Position numbers and translations under genes: made by a program. The notes below the pieces were generated by a model. That model ran no database searches. It was given only the letters and a program-made list of their open reading frames with translations, and was not told the DNA's origin. A stretch of 12,045 nucleotides of DNA from Desulfobacterales bacterium (GTDB taxonomy: Bacteria; Desulfobacterota; Desulfobacteria; Desulfobacterales; JAUCGF01): contig JAOZRC010000095.1 of NCBI GenBank assembly GCA_029940345.1, forward strand, positions 1 through 12,045, read 5' to 3'. Within the stretch, counting starts at the first letter, position 1. The number at the start of each line of letters is the position of its first letter. Below, piece after piece: positions 3,546 through 11,656 of the stretch.

Positions 3546-3615
3546 GCAAAGAATACTAATTCTATTATGCATTTTACCTGTGCGTTTGCTTTCATTTGAA
3601 GCGGAGTACAATTTA

Positions 3616-4773
3616 TTGAAACCCCAATGTGTGATGATTATTGCCGGTGAAACTTCCGGAGATATGCACGGTGCTAAAGTTGTCAGAGCGATGCGTCTGA
3701 AAAAGCGCGAACTGTTTTTTTGCGGTATCGGGGGCCCATCACTGCAAGCGGCCGGTGTACGTCTTTTAGCAGAAGCGTCCTCCCTGTCTGTTGTCGGCAT
3801 TACCGAAATATTTTCTAAGGCAACACACCTGTTAAATACGTTACGCCTTACAAAAAATATGCTTAAAGCCCTTCGTCCCGATCTTTTGATCCTGATCGAT
3901 TTTCCTGATTTTAACCTTAATGTCGCTAAAACTGCAAAACGCTTAGGTATCACGGTCTTGTACTATATCAGTCCCCAAATATGGGCTTGGCGATCGGGAC
4001 GGGTTAAACAGATCAAAAAAAGAGTGGATCATATCGCCGTTATTTTGCCTTTTGAAGCCGCATTTTACCATAAGCAACAAGTGCCTGTAACCTTTGTGGG
4101 GCATCCGCTGGCAGATACGTCTGGTTTTAAGCGTGAAATCAGAAATCAGAAGTCACAAAAGCGGCTTTATGAAAGCGTTAAGCGTGTGATCGGAATTTTA
4201 CCTGGGTCACGTGACCGTGAAGTTTCCGAACATCTGCCCGTTATGTTGGCATCTGCTCAAATATTGGCGAAACGCAACCCAGACTTACACTTTGTCATTT
4301 CGGTCGCCCCGTCGGTAAATAAAAAGCAAGTGCAAGCAGCTTTATCTGAATCAGAAGGCCAGGCGGAATTTGAAATTGCGGATAACAACATTGATGCAAT
4401 CCTCTCCGGATGTCTTTTGGTGATTGCTGTGTCTGGCACTGTCACGTTGGATGCTGCCATTTCCGGAACGCCGATGGTTATCATTTATAAAGTGTCTTCT
4501 TTAAGTTACCAGGTGGGTCGGATACTGATAAAAGTGCCCTATATCGGGCTTGTCAATCTCATCGCGCGTAAGGCGCTAGTGCCCGAATTGATTCAGAAAC
4601 GTGTAACCGCTACTAATATTGCAACTGAAGTCAGTCTTATGTTAAATAACCCAAACGCCCTTCGGCGAATTCGTAATGAGCTTCTGGGTCTTCGTTCTTT
4701 TCTCGGTGGTTCAGGTGCCAGTTTCCGCGTAGCTGAAATCGCATGCAAAATGATTGAGGAAGAGTGTTCTTAG
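3616..4773 (+). CDS. lpxB: Lipid-A-disaccharide synthase LpxB
   Basis: Peripheral inner-membrane GT-B glycosyltransferase (family GT19) that joins UDP-2,3-diacylglucosamine and lipid X, the LpxI product, into lipid A disaccharide 1-phosphate. With the TTG at 3616 it has 385 residues (E. coli 382). Motifs in order: AGETSGDMHG (10-19), DFPDFNLN (about 95-102), SPQIWAWRSGR (119-129), VGHPLAD (161-167) and LPGSRDREV (195-203). In this numbering the Asp of FPDF is residue 98 and the second Arg of SRDREV is 201, matching the essential D98 and R201 I recall for LpxB, which supports the start. GGAG (3603-3606) lies 9 nt upstream. A GTG at 3580 would add 12 poorly matching residues. It is the last gene of the lpx group before a hairpin gap. 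Confidence 0.95.
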   Translation: MKPQCVMIIAGETSGDMHGAKVVRAMRLKKRELFFCGIGGPSLQAAGVRLLAEASSLSVVGITEIFSKATHLLNTLRLTKNMLKALRPDLLILIDFPDFNLNVAKTAKRLGITVLYYISPQIWAWRSGRVKQIKKRVDHIAVILPFEAAFYHKQQVPVTFVGHPLADTSGFKREIRNQKSQKRLYESVKRVIGILPGSRDREVSEHLPVMLASAQILAKRNPDLHFVISVAPSVNKKQVQAALSESEGQAEFEIADNNIDAILSGCLLVIAVSGTVTLDAAISGTPMVIIYKVSSLSYQVGRILIKVPYIGLVNLIARKALVPELIQKRVTATNIATEVSLMLNNPNALRRIRNELLGLRSFLGGSGASFRVAEIACKMIEEECS

Positions 4774-4874: not shown

Positions 4875-7139
4875 ATGAGTGCTTGTAATGACACAAAAAA
4901 TGACATCTTAGCAATTAATGATGAATTGTCCGATCTGCTTTCCAGTGCCAAAGCCACTTTGTTTATTTCAGATAAAACTTTCCGACATTGGGAAAAACAA
5001 TGTTCCGAAATACGGCGACAGTTAGTCCGGGAACGGCTGCGGATTGCGGTTGTCGGTCCGATTAAATCGGGTAAAAGCACCTTTATCAACTCACTGCTTA
5101 AAGGTGATTATCTAAAACGCGGCGCCGGTGTTGTGACATCGATTATTACACGAATCCATCCGGGACAATCACTGAAGGCGCAACTATTTTTTAAGTCCTG
5201 GGATGACATTAACGCTGAAATCCGACGCGCACTGGTATTGTTCCCTTCCACATCCGTGTGGAAACCTCCGGAAGAAGGATTCGACATCAGGCGTGAAAAG
5301 GATCGCTCCGATCTTAAGAACGCTTTGGCGGCATTGCTGAATTCTAATGGGGGGACATTTCTTATCACAAATGACGCTCGTAATGAAAATAGCGTCCTGC
5401 TCGCTTCTTATCTTGATGGATATGAAAAAGCCCTGGAAGCCATCTCTTCATGTGATGACAATCTGACATTAGAATATCAAGATGAGCGGTTTGCCACCCA
5501 TCAACTATTCGTGAGCAATGATGCATTGGCTGTTTATTTGAAAGATGTTCAAATCCGAATTGACAGCCTTAAACGATTTGGAGATATTGAAATTGCCGAT
5601 TGCCAGGGAAGCGATTCCATTAATCCGTCACATTTCACATTTATTCAGCAGTATCTGCTTTCCGCCAACCTGATTCTTTATGTGGTGAGCAGTCGCACCG
5701 GACTAAGACGTGCTGATATTGATTTCTTATCGGTTATCAGGAAAATGGGGATCAGGAAAAATATCATGTTTATTATTAATTTTGATTTTAATGAACATGA
5801 TTCGTACAATGAACTCAATATTCTTGTCCGGAAGATTTCGGCTGAGATTGCTTTGATAAAAAAAGATGCATCTGTTTATGCCATATCCGCATTATTTAAT
5901 TTATTCAGAACTCAGGAAAATCGATTATCACCAAAAGAGCAACTGATATTTTCACAATGGCAACATGAGTCAGAGTTAATTGCGTTCTCCGACAAAGAAA
6001 CTGAGCGCTTAGAAACATCCTTATCACAAAAACTGACCAGCGAACGTTTTGCACTGCTCTTTACCAATATAATGGTGCATCAAGAATCAATTATAAAGGG
6101 ATTAAACCGACAATTAAAAATTAACCGCACGGTATTAAATAAAGATGCTCTGTTTGCGAAAGCGCTTTCCCATAAAATAGACGTGTATCAGGAAAAGATG
6201 GAAGGACTCGGACGCGTTATCCGTCGGGCAGTGGATGGTGCCGCTCAAAAGATGAAATATGATGTTACCAGGGAGGTTGACCGCCTTTTTGACTTGTATA
6301 GCGGTTCTATTTTAAGAAGCAGCCTTGATTTTGTAAAAAATTATCAGGTTGAATATGCGCAATATGAGGAACAGCTTTCAACCGATAGTGTTTCGAGCGT
6401 ATTATATCTTGTTTTCCAGGAGTTTAAGCACCAATTGGACACCTTTTTAGTCGAACAAATTCATCCCGAAATAATTCGTTTTTTAAATAACCAAGAGATA
6501 AAAATCATAGAATATATTGAATCAGTTGCCAAACCCTATGATCTTATGATAAAAGAAATATTCGAAGAGTTTACTACCGCTGCTGAACAAGTGGAATTAC
6601 AATCAGAACATCTGACCCGATCGGGAATTCAATTTCCCCGAATTGATGCGATAAAGGCCGATGCCAAGCTATCCGTTCCGCCGATAATTGCATCCATGCA
6701 TTATAGCGCTTTGGTTAAAACGGAAGCGATAATGCGTGTAGGAGCCTATTGGGCGATGGGCCTGGCCAAAAAAATATTTAAAAAACCGTTTCCATCTGAA
6801 AAACAAAAGAAAATTCAGGCATTGGAGAACGCGGTGTTAAGAATGAAGCGTGATACTAAAAAATCAGTCACTTTCAATTTTAAAAGCTACCGGGAAAATC
6901 TCAAATTTCAGTACATGCTCAAACTAATTAAAGTGTATTCGGAATCAGTCTGTAATGCGCTTGAAGACTCATTCCAGACATATTTTTTAGATACATCTCG
7001 TATTGATACATATTTAACCGCACGAGAAGCGGATAAAGGCATTGCCTTAGCCAAGATTGCAGAAACAGAGTATAGGGCAGTGCTAATTATGAATAAAATG
7101 GATATCACCAGAAGCCGTTTAATTGACAATCAAAATTAG
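4875..7139 (+). CDS. Dynamin-family large GTPase, bacterial dynamin-like protein
   Basis: A 754-residue protein expected to bind GTP and remodel or tether membranes. The GTPase domain shows G1 GPIKSGKS (61-68), G2 around T88 in VVTSIITRI, G3 DCQGSD (242-247, in place of DxPG), a weak G4 NFDF (302-305, lacking the usual Lys of NKxD) and a G5-like YAISAL (335-340). About 150 residues separate G2 and G3, a long insertion. From about 370 to the end the protein is nearly all helical, with charged coiled-coil-like segments. An amphipathic basic stretch at about 612-640 (VGAYWAMGLAKKIFKKPF) could be the membrane-contacting paddle. No signal peptide or clear transmembrane pair is seen. The ATG has only a weak AGCGGA upstream. 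The parA gene follows by 14 bp, so the two are probably co-transcribed. The fold assignment is good; the biological role is unknown. Confidence 0.85.
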   Translation: MSACNDTKNDILAINDELSDLLSSAKATLFISDKTFRHWEKQCSEIRRQLVRERLRIAVVGPIKSGKSTFINSLLKGDYLKRGAGVVTSIITRIHPGQSLKAQLFFKSWDDINAEIRRALVLFPSTSVWKPPEEGFDIRREKDRSDLKNALAALLNSNGGTFLITNDARNENSVLLASYLDGYEKALEAISSCDDNLTLEYQDERFATHQLFVSNDALAVYLKDVQIRIDSLKRFGDIEIADCQGSDSINPSHFTFIQQYLLSANLILYVVSSRTGLRRADIDFLSVIRKMGIRKNIMFIINFDFNEHDSYNELNILVRKISAEIALIKKDASVYAISALFNLFRTQENRLSPKEQLIFSQWQHESELIAFSDKETERLETSLSQKLTSERFALLFTNIMVHQESIIKGLNRQLKINRTVLNKDALFAKALSHKIDVYQEKMEGLGRVIRRAVDGAAQKMKYDVTREVDRLFDLYSGSILRSSLDFVKNYQVEYAQYEEQLSTDSVSSVLYLVFQEFKHQLDTFLVEQIHPEIIRFLNNQEIKIIEYIESVAKPYDLMIKEIFEEFTTAAEQVELQSEHLTRSGIQFPRIDAIKADAKLSVPPIIASMHYSALVKTEAIMRVGAYWAMGLAKKIFKKPFPSEKQKKIQALENAVLRMKRDTKKSVTFNFKSYRENLKFQYMLKLIKVYSESVCNALEDSFQTYFLDTSRIDTYLTAREADKGIALAKIAETEYRAVLIMNKMDITRSRLIDNQN

Positions 7140-7153
7140 AGGAGGTTTTCGGG

Positions 7154-7957
7154 ATGGAATCTGAAAAAGCCCGAATTATTGCCATCGCCAATGAGAAAGG
7201 CGGCGTAGGAAAAACAGTGACGGTATTAAATCTCGGAGCGGCATTATATCGAGAGGGCAAAACAGTATTAATCATTGATATAGACCCCCAGAGCAATGCA
7301 ACCAAAGGAATGGGGATTGAATCAGACGAAGAGATGCTAACCTCTTATGATATTATTACCAATTCAGAAGAAATCGATCCGAATGTGGCAATTATTCACA
7401 CCCAATGGGAGGGCCTTGATGTGATACCTTCCAGTTCCGATCTCATAGGTGCGGATATTGAACTTTATGATCAGGACGGCAGGGAAGAAAAACTGCGGGA
7501 AGGGCTTGAAGGACTGGCCGATAAATATGATTTCATCCTTATTGATACACCGCCCAGCCTATCGCTTCTCACTGTCAATGTATTTGCGTTTGCTGAGGAA
7601 GTGTTGATCCCATGCCAGACACATCCCTATTCTTTTAACGCCTTGGCGGGATTATTTGATACGCTTGATATGATCAAAAAGGAAATCAACCCTGCTATTC
7701 GGATAACCGGTATTATCGCAACGTTTTTCGATAACCGTACGAAAGTCAGTCGGAATGTCCTGGAAAAAATAAAGGCTGATGAAAAATATAAAGGTTTGCT
7801 TTTTAGAACCAAAATCAGGATAAACACAACGATTGCTGATAGTGCCGAAGCGGGTGTGCCAGTTGTTTTCTATAAACCGAATAGTCACGGTGCCAGTGAT
7901 TATAACGATCTCGCGGAAGAGCTTTTGCAAAGGGAATTATCTGACGGGTCTGATTAG
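7154..7957 (+). CDS. Orphan ParA/Soj-family ATPase
   Basis: A 267-residue deviant Walker ATPase of the ParA/MinD class, which positions DNA or protein cargo by ATP-dependent dimerisation. KGGVGKT (15-21) has both the signature Lys15 and the P-loop Lys20. IIDIDPQSNAT (40-50) is the switch I region and ILIDTPPS (128-135) the Walker B region. The C-terminal third (SRNVLEKIK, TKIRINTTIADSAEAG, DYNDLAEEL) follows standard ParA. No long N-terminal DNA-binding domain is present, so it is the short chromosomal/Soj-like type, without a MinD-style membrane-targeting C-terminal helix. No ParB or parS-like repeats are seen nearby, so it is an orphan. A strong GGAGG (7141-7145) sits 8 nt before the ATG, far better than its neighbours' sites. 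Cargo could be the dynamin-like protein encoded just upstream; that is inference. Confidence 0.93.
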   Translation: MESEKARIIAIANEKGGVGKTVTVLNLGAALYREGKTVLIIDIDPQSNATKGMGIESDEEMLTSYDIITNSEEIDPNVAIIHTQWEGLDVIPSSSDLIGADIELYDQDGREEKLREGLEGLADKYDFILIDTPPSLSLLTVNVFAFAEEVLIPCQTHPYSFNALAGLFDTLDMIKKEINPAIRITGIIATFFDNRTKVSRNVLEKIKADEKYKGLLFRTKIRINTTIADSAEAGVPVVFYKPNSHGASDYNDLAEELLQRELSDGSD

Positions 7958-7973
7958 ACCGAATTAACCGATT

Positions 7974-8411
7974 ATGCGCGCAGTCATCCAAAGGGTTCTT
8001 AAAAGCAGTGTTAAAATTGAGTCCCAGGTAGTCGGCGAAATCGGCCGGGGCCTTTTAGTGCTTCTTGGTATTGCCAAGGGTGATTCTGAGCAGGATGGAG
8101 CCTACCTGGCAGATAAAATATGCAATCTGCGTATTTTTGAAGATAATCAAGGTAAAATGAATCGGTCGATTTCAGACACTGGCGGCGCTATACTCGTTGT
8201 TTCACAGTTCACCTTACTGGGGGACTGCCGCAAGGGCCGACGACCTTCTTACAAGGATGCCGCCTCACCGGAACGAGCCAAAGTGCTTTACCACCATTTC
8301 GTCAGTCTGATTCAAAATAAAGACATTACAGTTAAAACCGGTCGTTTCGGCGCGATGATGCAAGTGTGTTTGGTCAATGACGGGCCGGTGACGCTGATTA
8401 TTGATAAGTGA
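7974..8411 (+). CDS. dtd: D-aminoacyl-tRNA deacylase Dtd
   Basis: Cytosolic proofreading enzyme that removes D-amino acids (and glycine from tRNA-Ala) mischarged on tRNA. The 145 residues match the normal family length, with the start MRAVIQRV, the SQFTLL motif (77-82) and the Gly-cisPro motif NDGPVT (135-140) that form the active site across the dimer. It starts 16 bp after the parA stop with no clear Shine-Dalgarno, so it probably depends on readthrough from the dynamin-parA transcript. Housekeeping function; no evident link to its upstream neighbours beyond co-transcription. Confidence 0.96.
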
Positions 8412-8573: not shown

Positions 8574-10802
8574 ATGGCGAAAATAGATAAAATTCAAGTG
8601 ACAAGCGGTGTTTATCTGGTAGTGGTCCCGGAGGCGGATATATCTGTTTTATGCGGTTGCCCGGCAGATAGTGTCAAACACCTGATGAAACGCGGCTTAA
8701 TCATAACCAAAGAAAAGGATAATTTCACTTTTGAAACAGGCCCTAATGTTGTCCTTTTATCCGATGTGCTGTTACAGAACGGAACTTTTGCCAATTTGGC
8801 CGAATTTCCGGTATTGCAAATGCTGTATAAACAGGGAATGATAATCCCGAACCATCCTAATAACACAGGTATAAAGCCGATGCTGATCGGCCTTGATGAA
8901 CAGGTCGAAGCACAGATGAAATATATCTATCGGGGCAATTATGGCCTTGTATCCGAAGAAGAAATCACAAAAGCCGGTATAGATCAGGATCGCGCCCATG
9001 AAATGATGCGTCTTAAATTGAAATTCGCTTTTGGAAAAATTCATGGGCCGGAAGAACTGTTAGATACGCGGATAATCGAAAACGAAGCCGTTGAGATCAG
9101 AAACAGTGTGTTTGTCCGCCGTCTCAGGCTGAATGTGTTTGAATTCGAATATAAAGATGAAAAAGTGAAGGTCGATTTAAATTTGGCGCCCCATGAAACT
9201 TACGGATCGGCTTACCCCTTAAATTTCCATCGTATCAAACGCGAATATTTTGCCGTGATTCATTCCGGGGAAGGGGATGGCTGGAACGTAAATCATCCTT
9301 GCATGTCAAGCATCCTGATGTTCCAGGGCAAAATTTATCTCATTGACGCAGGCCCTAATGTACTCTACAGTCTCGGCGCATTGGGAATCGGCGTCAATGA
9401 AATTGAAGGTATTTTCCACACCCATGCACATGATGATCATTTTGCAGGTTTCACCACCTTAATGCGGGCTGACCATCGAATCAAATATTATGCCACCAAG
9501 CTGGTTCGAAAATCGGTAAGTCGTAAACTGGCGGCGTTGATGTCCATTGATGAAAAAAATCTGTTTGACTATTTTGAAGTTCACGATCTTGATTTTGACA
9601 AATGGAACGATATAGACGGTTTGGAAATCAGGCCGGTGTTTTCACCCCATCCCGTGGAAACCAGCATCTTTTTCTTCCGCACTTTATGGGAAGACGGCTT
9701 TCAGTATTATGCCCATTTGGCCGATATTGTCGCTCTGAGTGTTTTAGAAGGCATGATTACAGATGACAATACTGAAAACGGAATCACACGGGAATTTTAT
9801 GATCGGATTAAAAAGGAATATCAGAGGAGGGTTCACCTAAAGAAAATTGATGTGGGCGGAGGTATGATTCACGGGGATGCTGATGATTTCAAAAATGATT
9901 CCTCTGTTAAAATCATTCTTTCACACACCACTGATGAACTGAGCAACGAGCAAAAAGAGATCGGTTCGGGCGCGCCTTTCGGAATGGTGGATATCTTAAT
10001 TCCGACGACCCATAATTATGCCCAATCAATCGCATTTCAATTCTTACAAGCGTATTTTCCTTCCGCCCCGACGTATCAACTGAAAATTTTATCCAATAAC
10101 CAGTTATTAGAGTTCAACCCGGAGTCAATTTTACTCCGGGGGGGTGATATCCATGAAGATGTTTACCTGATCATCACAGGAAATATCGAACTGATTCAAA
10201 CTGACCTGGGGGTTCATAATATTCTGTCCGCAGGCGCTCTTATCGGCGAAATATCCGGTTTGGAACAGGTACCCTCAATTGGCACCTACCGCGCCACTAA
10301 TTTCGTTCAGGCGTTGCGCCTTCCAGGCAATCTGTATTTTAATTTCGTAAAACGCAACAATCTTTATTCAGATATCAAACGCTTACAGGATAACCGTGAA
10401 TTTCTGCAAAAAACATGGTTATTTGGTGAAGTCGTATCCTACCCCACGCAATATCGGTTAGCCCAAGCCATGAATTTTCATCAATACCCTTCGGGTTGGG
10501 TTTTCCCGAAAGAGGTTCTACCCGGAATTTCATTGATTAAAAACGGAAAATTGGAGCGCTATATTGATGACGAAGTGTTCGAGACATTAACGGCCGGGCA
10601 TTTTTTCGGGGAAGAATCGGTGATGTTCAAAAGAGCCAGCTTATTTCAAGTGCGCGTGACAGAACCCACCGAAATTTATCAAATTCCAAGTGCCATGTTA
10701 TTGGATATACCCGTAGTGCGTTGGAAACTGTTTGAAATTTATCAAAGAAGAATGGAAATCGATATTAAATCGGGAGAGGATTCTATCCCGCTGCGGCCCT
10801 GA
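8574..10802 (+). CDS. Metallo-beta-lactamase-fold protein with two C-terminal cyclic-nucleotide-binding-like domains
   Basis: A 742-residue predicted cytosolic protein. Residues 1 to about 215 are an N-terminal region I do not recognise. From about 225 there is a metallo-beta-lactamase fold: SSILMFQGKIYLIDAGP, then HAHDDH (284-289, complete HxHxDH), with likely further ligands H359 (SPHPVE), D384 (HLADI) and H433 or H451. Two cNMP-binding-like beta-barrels follow, at about 505-600 (LRGGDIHEDVYLIITGNIEL, ALIGEISGL) and 630-730 (LIKNGKLERYI, GHFFGEESVMF). The Gly-Glu of the phosphate-binding cassette is kept in each, but the following Arg is not where expected, so ligand binding is doubtful. 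It may be a hydrolase gated by a small molecule or by protein contact; the substrate is unknown. ATG 8574 has a GGGGGG run (8565-8570) just upstream. A terminator follows directly. Confidence 0.85.
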   Translation: MAKIDKIQVTSGVYLVVVPEADISVLCGCPADSVKHLMKRGLIITKEKDNFTFETGPNVVLLSDVLLQNGTFANLAEFPVLQMLYKQGMIIPNHPNNTGIKPMLIGLDEQVEAQMKYIYRGNYGLVSEEEITKAGIDQDRAHEMMRLKLKFAFGKIHGPEELLDTRIIENEAVEIRNSVFVRRLRLNVFEFEYKDEKVKVDLNLAPHETYGSAYPLNFHRIKREYFAVIHSGEGDGWNVNHPCMSSILMFQGKIYLIDAGPNVLYSLGALGIGVNEIEGIFHTHAHDDHFAGFTTLMRADHRIKYYATKLVRKSVSRKLAALMSIDEKNLFDYFEVHDLDFDKWNDIDGLEIRPVFSPHPVETSIFFFRTLWEDGFQYYAHLADIVALSVLEGMITDDNTENGITREFYDRIKKEYQRRVHLKKIDVGGGMIHGDADDFKNDSSVKIILSHTTDELSNEQKEIGSGAPFGMVDILIPTTHNYAQSIAFQFLQAYFPSAPTYQLKILSNNQLLEFNPESILLRGGDIHEDVYLIITGNIELIQTDLGVHNILSAGALIGEISGLEQVPSIGTYRATNFVQALRLPGNLYFNFVKRNNLYSDIKRLQDNREFLQKTWLFGEVVSYPTQYRLAQAMNFHQYPSGWVFPKEVLPGISLIKNGKLERYIDDEVFETLTAGHFFGEESVMFKRASLFQVRVTEPTEIYQIPSAMLLDIPVVRWKLFEIYQRRMEIDIKSGEDSIPLRP

Positions 10803-11028: not shown

Positions 11029-11399
11029 CCCCGCCACTGATGACCGCTTCGGCAGCTCCGTGGCCGTCAGCGACGATACCGCCGTGGTCGGCGCTTATTA
11101 CGACGACGGCGCTCTGACTCCGGTTCGGCATACGTGTTCGTCAAAGGCGCATCATGGGCCGATATGACCCAAACCGCAAAACTCACCGCATCCGATGCCG
11201 CCGCTAATGACAACTTCGGCTACTCCGTGGCCATCAGCGGCGATACCGCCGTGGTCGGCGCTTATCACGACGACGACGGCGGCTCTGAATCCGGTTCGGC
11301 ATACGTGTTCGTCAAAGGAGCCGGCGCATGGGCCGATATGAACGAAACCGCAAACTCACCGCTGCCGCCGCTGATGACCGCTTCGGCTTTAATGGGTGA
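11029..11399 (+). pseudogene. FG-GAP / integrin-alpha-like repeat protein fragment, frameshifted
   Basis: Translating across frames gives beta-propeller FG-GAP units of the kind DxFGxSVAxSGDTAVVGAYxDD...GSAYVFVKG...WAD, typical of large secreted or surface proteins. The FG codons TTCGGC recur at 11048, 11215 and 11382, a spacing of 167 bp each time, which is not a multiple of three. In unit 1 the DDG region (about 11101-11118) is 4 nt shorter than in unit 2, breaking frame. In unit 2 an A-run near 11352-11354 is one A short of the equivalent in unit 1 (11178-11181), breaking it again; correcting it leads to a stop at 11397-11399. No start codon, signal peptide or full propeller is present. 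The block is visibly GC-rich between AT-rich flanks. The open frame from GTG 11134 to 11415 is only a piece of it. Confidence 0.8.
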
Positions 11400-11656
11400 C
11401 CCATTATTTACATGATGCCCATTCAACCTATTCCAAGGAAATGTGATAACGCTTTTAAATTATTCACAAAAAATTTTAAATAAAATGTTAATGCGAAGAA
11501 CTGGGTATTAAAATTATCTAAATGGATTTGTCACAATCTATAATTTGAAGACAGGTAAATGCTATGTAAACAAAAGATGGTTGTTCATAATAAAACCTAT
11601 TAAAAACAATTAGATAAAAGTTTCTCACATTCAATTGTCACAATATTTTTATGTCA

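Follow-up and report, generated by a model that had tools for sequence, protein, structure and literature searches.

Within a 12,045-nucleotide stretch of DNA from a Desulfobacterales bacterium (GenBank assembly GCA_029940345.1; here 'the window', i.e., the whole of contig C772 of an incomplete assembly of 6.05 Mb in 1024 contigs), a gene for a dynamin-like GTPase is followed directly by one for a ParA-type ATPase, and this pairing recurs across the order well beyond chance. The ParA is, by its sequence, a member of a subfamily that is related to, and separate from, chromosomal Soj, and a membrane protein with a basic N-terminus, given here the name K, is its candidate partner. Directly established are the genes, their fold class, the conserved linkage, the subfamily identity of the ParA, and the co-occurrence plus partial linkage of K; the joint function of dynamin and ParA is inferred. 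The features of the pair are as follows.

4875..7139, + strand: dynamin-like GTPase of the BDLP/SynDLP/mitofusin type, 754 amino acids, ATG start (open reading frame)
5055..5078, + strand: GPIKSGKS, dynamin residues 61-68, taken here to be the G1/P-loop; G61 and K64-S68 are invariant in a 16-row alignment (A1)
6708..6797, + strand: possible membrane-binding tip, dynamin residues 612-641, between the long helices 506-571 and 642-698 of the predicted model
7140..7145, + strand: parA ribosome-binding site AGGAGG, 8 bp before the ATG (sequence)
7154..7957, + strand: ParA/Soj-like ATPase of the dynamin-linked subfamily (ANEKGGVGKT), 267 amino acids, ATG start (open reading frame; AAA_31, E 7.8e-54)
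7193..7216, + strand: deviant Walker A motif EKGGVGKT, ParA residues 14-21; E14-T21 are invariant in 16 of 16 rows of alignment A2

A preliminary description of this DNA had reported a 754-residue dynamin-family GTPase and then, across an intergenic gap of 14 bp, a ParA-type ATPase with a strong GGAGG, and the open reading frames do lie at exactly those coordinates.

Conservation was assessed in 242 genomes of the order, which apparently is Desulfobacterales as named records with related dynamins mostly are Desulfobacterales. Dynamin presence was called by profile at E <= 1e-60, giving 186 of the 242 genomes, or 187 upon addition of a fragment in G232, while the ParA subfamily was called by a profile of 16 linked ParAs, with up to 10 ParA candidates scored per genome. 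That subfamily is present in 95 of the 242, and in 83 of those 95 carriers the ParA is found directly 3' of the dynamin, on the same strand, as seen from profile match positions in 70 and by lookup in another 13 (dynamin positions for 36 of the 186 genomes were outside the listing, and lookup covered the 25 ParA genomes for which a position was needed). Between profile matches, the gaps in the 70 range from 11 to 308 bp, with a median of 88, and in loci L024, L068, and L102 the two open reading frames overlap by 4 bp, L068 probably being the same contig as L015. The pair is also kept in a cultured relative, Desulfatitalea alkaliphila (L061), where the gap is 9 bp. As to remaining carriers, both genes are present but apart in G035 and G153, the pair is split by contig ends in G196, and ParA is at a contig edge, with dynamin not found, in G022 and G160; seven others are considered below. 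G079, outside of the 95, carries a partial ParA of this subfamily directly after its dynamin (first 161 residues, 60-73% identical to linked ParAs, 270 bits). Presence too is associated, with ParA in 86 of 187 dynamin genomes vs. 9 of 55 others (Fisher p 6.7e-5, a test which, here as below, ignores phylogeny).

The usual site of the pair reads AlgH, a small Cys-rich open reading frame, dynamin, ParA, YcaO or CopA, HisB, and DnaG, with YcaO, CopA, HisB, and DnaG named by eye. Part of the dynamin-ParA linkage is inherited gene order, for AlgH and YcaO frequently keep their places beside the pair as well. Ten of the 95 ParA loci, however, from five families (f1, f22, f41, f67, f70), have the dynamin adjacent with none of 12 marker flanking families on either side, where 'absent' means unmatched within the fetched flank. 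Another 42 have dynamin and markers on both sides, and the other 43 are mixed, truncated, or without dynamin. The new flanks include lpxB and dtd (the window), a GAPDH-like gene (f41), an M24 peptidase (f67), and SbcCD-like genes (f22). The gene-neighbourhood survey that the preliminary description had proposed thus finds the pair conserved far beyond close relatives. Among the best 80 of 278 dynamin loci found, these being named loci with the window excluded, 36 have the ParA, 35 do not, and 9 are unscorable; the locus survey count of 49/111 includes two window loci as well as genomes overlapping named ones. Outside of the order, a 395-genome sample of the phylum, with up to 6 candidates per genome, yields a single genome with this ParA at E <= 1e-90 (G317), along with a partial frame of the same ParA in its relative G246.

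The window ParA matches AAA_31, as listed, and CbiA (E 1.1e-23) in Pfam. It is 53-60% identical to 15 dynamin-linked ParAs (A2) vs. 38% to the Soj of its own genome, and it scores 193 bits against the best ParA of the PDB and about 170 bits against Thermus Soj. Marks of the subfamily vs. Soj are ANEKGGVGKT for ANQKGGVGKT and RxNTT for PRNVR, and there is also CQTxPY. Scores fall into two classes, that is, 95 genomes with full-length members at 367 bits or more vs. at most 270 bits for other matches listed. Of what are presumably two DNA-contact arginines of Soj, the first is nearly invariant (R195), and at the second position stands T226, close to an invariant R222. That no ParB or parS is visible, as had been noted, holds for the window, with no ParB among its scanned proteins and no parS-like site at up to 3 mismatches. 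As to a cognate parB elsewhere, which was a further concern of that description, the one ParB_N match of the genome belongs to a separate Soj-ParB pair on contig C524; parS-like 16-mers lie on C496 (exact) and on C488 (1 mismatch).

The dynamin matches Dynamin_N (PF00350) of Pfam with E 1.7e-15 and 57.9 bits vs. a cut-off of 27. Its predicted model, which is of moderate confidence (pLDDT 74.7, pTM 0.53), has neck and trunk helical bundles around the G domain and matches SynDLP, BDLP, mitofusins, and IniA, with PDB matches spanning residues 1-754, the full-length ones at a large root-mean-square deviation, i.e., with other domain angles. The tip at 612-641 is basic and hydrophobic, with weak amphipathicity, and by analogy with BDLP possibly is a membrane-binding paddle. 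As an observation in its own right, the G4 region (residues 302-308; window 5778-5798) reads N-x-D-x-x-E-H, with N302, D304, E307, and H308 invariant in 16 rows, and no NKxD is found there. The canonical G4 motif presumably being (N/T)KxD, nucleotide specificity may be unusual.

The preliminary description also called the ParA an 'orphan', and this it probably is not, as K, with its basic N-terminus, is a candidate partner. Three families of the order have K next to the ParA or no more than 1 kb away, and one family outside has the two genes adjoining. Particularly, K is directly 3' of ParA in f41, in f64 and, outside the order, in f78 (G317, G246); G206 has dynamin, ParA, and K running in one direction; and in G176 and G160, neither with a detected dynamin, K neighbours ParA, while in G237 a K N-terminus is seen at the corresponding position, at the contig end. 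Within f59, a TetR-like gene (by eye) separates ParA from K, which is encoded on the opposite strand at a distance of 0.9-1.0 kb; G104, of that family and without ParA, has dynamin, TetR-like gene, and K in succession. In G245 (f77, outside the order) K directly precedes the dynamin, with a ParA-like tail of 18-26 residues just upstream (E ~1e-3, weak).

The N-terminal motif of K is MG[KR]x[ST]L.[KR].T..K, G2, T10, and K13 each being shared by 90% or more of 22 rows. There follows a long low-confidence region, often Lys-rich and probably disordered, then a hydrophobic stretch (one in each of nine members checked), and then a folded, mainly helical domain. A helix-turn-helix match passes its cut-off in f41 and falls short of it in f78, with a similar stretch seen by eye in f77 and f132; apart from this, the K members scanned have nothing above cut-off in either Pfam or NCBIfam. 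According to two papers, ParA/MinD ATPase activators share a short basic N-terminus on a domain that binds protein, DNA, or membrane (PMC7993993; also PMC10241942).

K was sought with a profile (A3) built from f41, f59, and f64, and with another (A4) built also from G317, such that those matches occur by construction. It is present in 171 of the 242 genomes, including 81 of 95 with ParA vs. 90 of 147 without (Fisher p 4.8e-5), and in all nine ParA genomes without a detected dynamin. In 5 of 72 genomes with listed positions, K is 1 kb or less from ParA, vs. 0.11 expected within 3 kb by random placement, and counting these as three lineages gives P ~2e-4. In the phylum sample, four genomes outside of the order have K. 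The copy in the window's own genome is this:

Contig C876 of the same genome (G000:C876), 792-2222, - strand: K, by profile match, unlinked to ParA here

Its contig (L231:5977-9629) holds also a response-regulator-like gene, a divergent ParA-like gene (115 bits to A2), and Roadblock-like genes, the non-ParA names being by eye.

What might such a set of proteins do? The proposal put forward here, a tentative one, is of a nucleoid-membrane positioning module, that is, ParA plus K, which places or regulates the dynamin. ATP-bound ParA would sit on the nucleoid, its DNA binding being presumed. K, a predicted single-pass membrane protein, would trigger the ParA ATPase via its conserved basic N-terminus (MG[KR]x[ST]LxKxT..KK), which is similar to peptides known to activate ParA/MinD proteins, and the two together would bridge nucleoid and membrane, a bridge able to find its position with respect to the chromosome. 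As the membrane-remodelling effector, the dynamin, probably of the same operon, would be placed or licensed there by some presumed contact, as, for example, in division or in membrane repair between segregated nucleoids. The fuller picture of a three-part machine of dynamin, ParA, and transmembrane K, in which the nucleoid is the ruler for dynamin-driven remodelling and the cargo of a ParA is a membrane-remodelling GTPase, is more doubtful. Speaking for the positioning module are the linkage in 83 of 95 carriers, the ten flank-free loci in five families, the reading-frame overlaps, the co-occurrence of ParA with dynamin and with K, and the linkage of K along with its near-invariant motif.

The explanation that competes most closely, rated as about equal, is that ParA and K are a positioning module of their own, for other cargo, with the dynamin a separate membrane-maintenance protein whose adjacency mostly is inherited order. 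Much of what follows favours that explanation and, by the same token, weighs against placement of the dynamin. Seven genomes have the ParA, not at a contig end, without an intact dynamin (G001, G032, G106, G176, G186, G195, and G237), and these, like the two contig-edge cases, all have K. In G186, G032, G106, and G195 the ParA is in the usual site and the dynamin is gone, the ParA of G032 having an internal stop, while in G176 and G237 the ParA follows a GAPDH-like gene and the dynamin lying between them in relatives is missing. In G001, a congener of the window's bacterium, lpxB and parA are about 430 bp apart; just fragments of the dynamin are left there (residues 549-615 and 725-754), and parA is intact. 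Ratios of nonsynonymous to synonymous substitution (dN/dS) between the window and G001 are 0.137 for parA, 0.149 for lpxB, 0.150 for dtd, 0.111 for lpxI, and 0.059 for mbl, the lowest of the five. The G001 ParA thus is, as judged from these ratios, about as constrained as its neighbours, i.e., next to the dynamin remnants it is kept by purifying selection.

In the other direction, this ParA is absent from 101 of the 187 genomes with dynamin. On a quick dynamin tree of the named loci, the 72 rows scored for ParA require ten or more switches between its presence and absence. In a quick ParA tree, many of whose branches are weakly supported, dynamin-less ParAs are interspersed with linked ones, at two or more points that starred branches force; excluded from this tree were duplicates, L127 (internal stop), the ParA of G317, and the same-genome paralogues L115, L118, L120, L121, and L122-L124. 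Given losses of either partner, neither gene needs the other in every lineage. The dynamins of metagenome-assembled genomes labelled Nitrospirota or Deferribacteres likewise have no adjacent ParA where the flank is readable. Those dynamins (L069, L070, L076, L103, L104, L111) form one clade (100*) inside of Desulfobacterales dynamins in the quick tree, a placement that suggests transfer without ParA.

K too supplies difficulties. Dynamin and K show no co-occurrence over the 242 genomes (odds ratio 0.98), and K is unlinked to ParA in most genomes, the window's included. Among 13 further K loci of the order that were examined, none has this ParA beside it, and nine have LarE-like or peptide-ABC-like neighbours (by eye). 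With K on the other strand in f59, beyond another gene, two neighbourhoods may simply be meeting there, and in G372 (f132) neither ParA nor dynamin is encoded close to K, which there does not show the motif. To these may be added the threonine at one presumed Soj DNA-contact position, the disregard of phylogeny by the Fisher tests, and an N-terminus of the dynamin which is not basic. HisB and DnaG, like AlgH and YcaO, are conserved neighbours as well. Set against a ParA-K module with other cargo, nevertheless, are the dynamin-ParA linkage without the usual flanks in five families, the 4-bp overlaps, and the adjoining of K and dynamin in G245.

Less likely, by some distance, is that K is unrelated and that the ParA itself, by direct and nucleotide-dependent action, recruits the dynamin or times its activity. 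The strong adjacency and operon-like layout would suit such an arrangement, but the dynamin has no basic N-terminal peptide and K is both linked to and co-occurring with ParA. A membrane-stress or anti-phage role for the dynamin, as with LeoA-like proteins and Bacillus DynA, and with ParA as accessory, seems a shade less probable still. In its favour are weak PADLOC matches of the dynamin to LeoA (E 5e-8, residues 9-96) and LeoBC (E 1.8e-4), as well as the phage resistance conferred by B. subtilis DynA, as given in PMC8844932. The LeoA match, though, is confined to the start of the G domain, the usual site is among housekeeping genes, and ParA and the MBL/cNMP protein described below have weak and partial PADLOC matches. 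That the ParA is a partition protein, of chromosome or plasmid, that has become separated from its ParB is already disfavoured and very improbable, for while its sequence is closest to Soj-type ParAs, it is of a separate subfamily, full-length members scoring 367 bits or more vs. about 270 or less for other matches listed, and the Soj-ParB of the genome is elsewhere, with no parS in the window.

The order of genes in the window is fabZ, lpxA, lpxI, a Gfo/Idh oxidoreductase, lpxB, dynamin, parA, dtd, and a gene for a metallo-beta-lactamase (MBL) fold with cyclic-nucleotide (cNMP)-binding domains, fabZ and lpxA being named by eye. The immediate neighbours are as follows.

3580..4773, + strand: lpxB, a neighbour only (PF02684, E 1.3e-97), ending 101 bp before the dynamin start
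7974..8411, + strand: dtd, D-aminoacyl-tRNA deacylase (TIGR00256, above cut-off), starting 16 bp after the end of parA

The dtd gene probably is outside of the dynamin-ParA system. Further along, at 8574-10802, is the protein of 742 amino acids whose MBL fold is joined to cNMP-binding domain matches, and at 11134-11415, near the contig end, an open reading frame with FG-GAP-like repeats (DSGSAYVFVKG..; by eye). At the usual site in relatives, the small Cys-rich open reading frame between AlgH and dynamin, on the opposite strand to the dynamin (L097:2462-2698, - strand), has matches in at least 77 loci, with up to 97% identity over about 30 amino acids, and no Pfam match. A second GTPase-like protein, of about 500 amino acids, occurs near the pair, beside a RecX-like gene (both identified by eye), in L107:10562-12073 (- strand) and L153:9424-10950 (- strand).

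Dynamin and ParA both belong to known superfamilies. Among the literature matches listed, however, a dynamin placed by a ParA, or one paired with a non-ParB ParA plus a candidate membrane activator, is undescribed. Functions of bacterial dynamins are known for few cases, and should the parts considered here work together, then bacteria would have a way of tying membrane remodelling to chromosome position. The conserved pair along with its candidate membrane partner is a testable route from the one to the other, and K is a named candidate for partnering an 'orphan' ParA.

With BDLP of Nostoc, SynDLP of Synechocystis, IniA, CjDLP1/2, and mitofusins, the window dynamin has in common the dynamin fold, i.e., G domain with neck- and trunk-like helices, aligned over most of the chain, and it differs in sequence, with identities of about 10-15% in Foldseek matches. 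Described bacterial dynamin-like proteins are mostly paired in operons with another such protein, according to PMC6104087, whereas that of the window is paired with a ParA. E. coli CrfC/RdcA (b4109) is a dynamin-like protein with a role in nucleoid positioning, as described in PMC6374313, and is similar in length, but its neighbour is rdcB, not a ParA. Identity of the window dynamin with CrfC was rejected, as only G-domain stretches align (by BLASTP, 53 residues around the P-loop at 36% identity; by profile comparison, 68% probability over 224 columns of the G-domain part). Soj and the ParA of ParABS share the deviant Walker A motif with the window ParA, which differs from them in the absence of parB and parS beside its gene, in NEKGG rather than NQKGG and RxNTT rather than PRNVR, and in its distinct class of bit scores. 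McdA-McdB, PpfA-TlpT, and PomZ-PomX, as described in PMC10241942 and PMC7993993, each join a ParA to a non-ParB partner with a basic N-terminus, as the candidate K would do, and K differs from McdB, TlpT, and PomX in possessing a transmembrane stretch and in having a dynamin linked.

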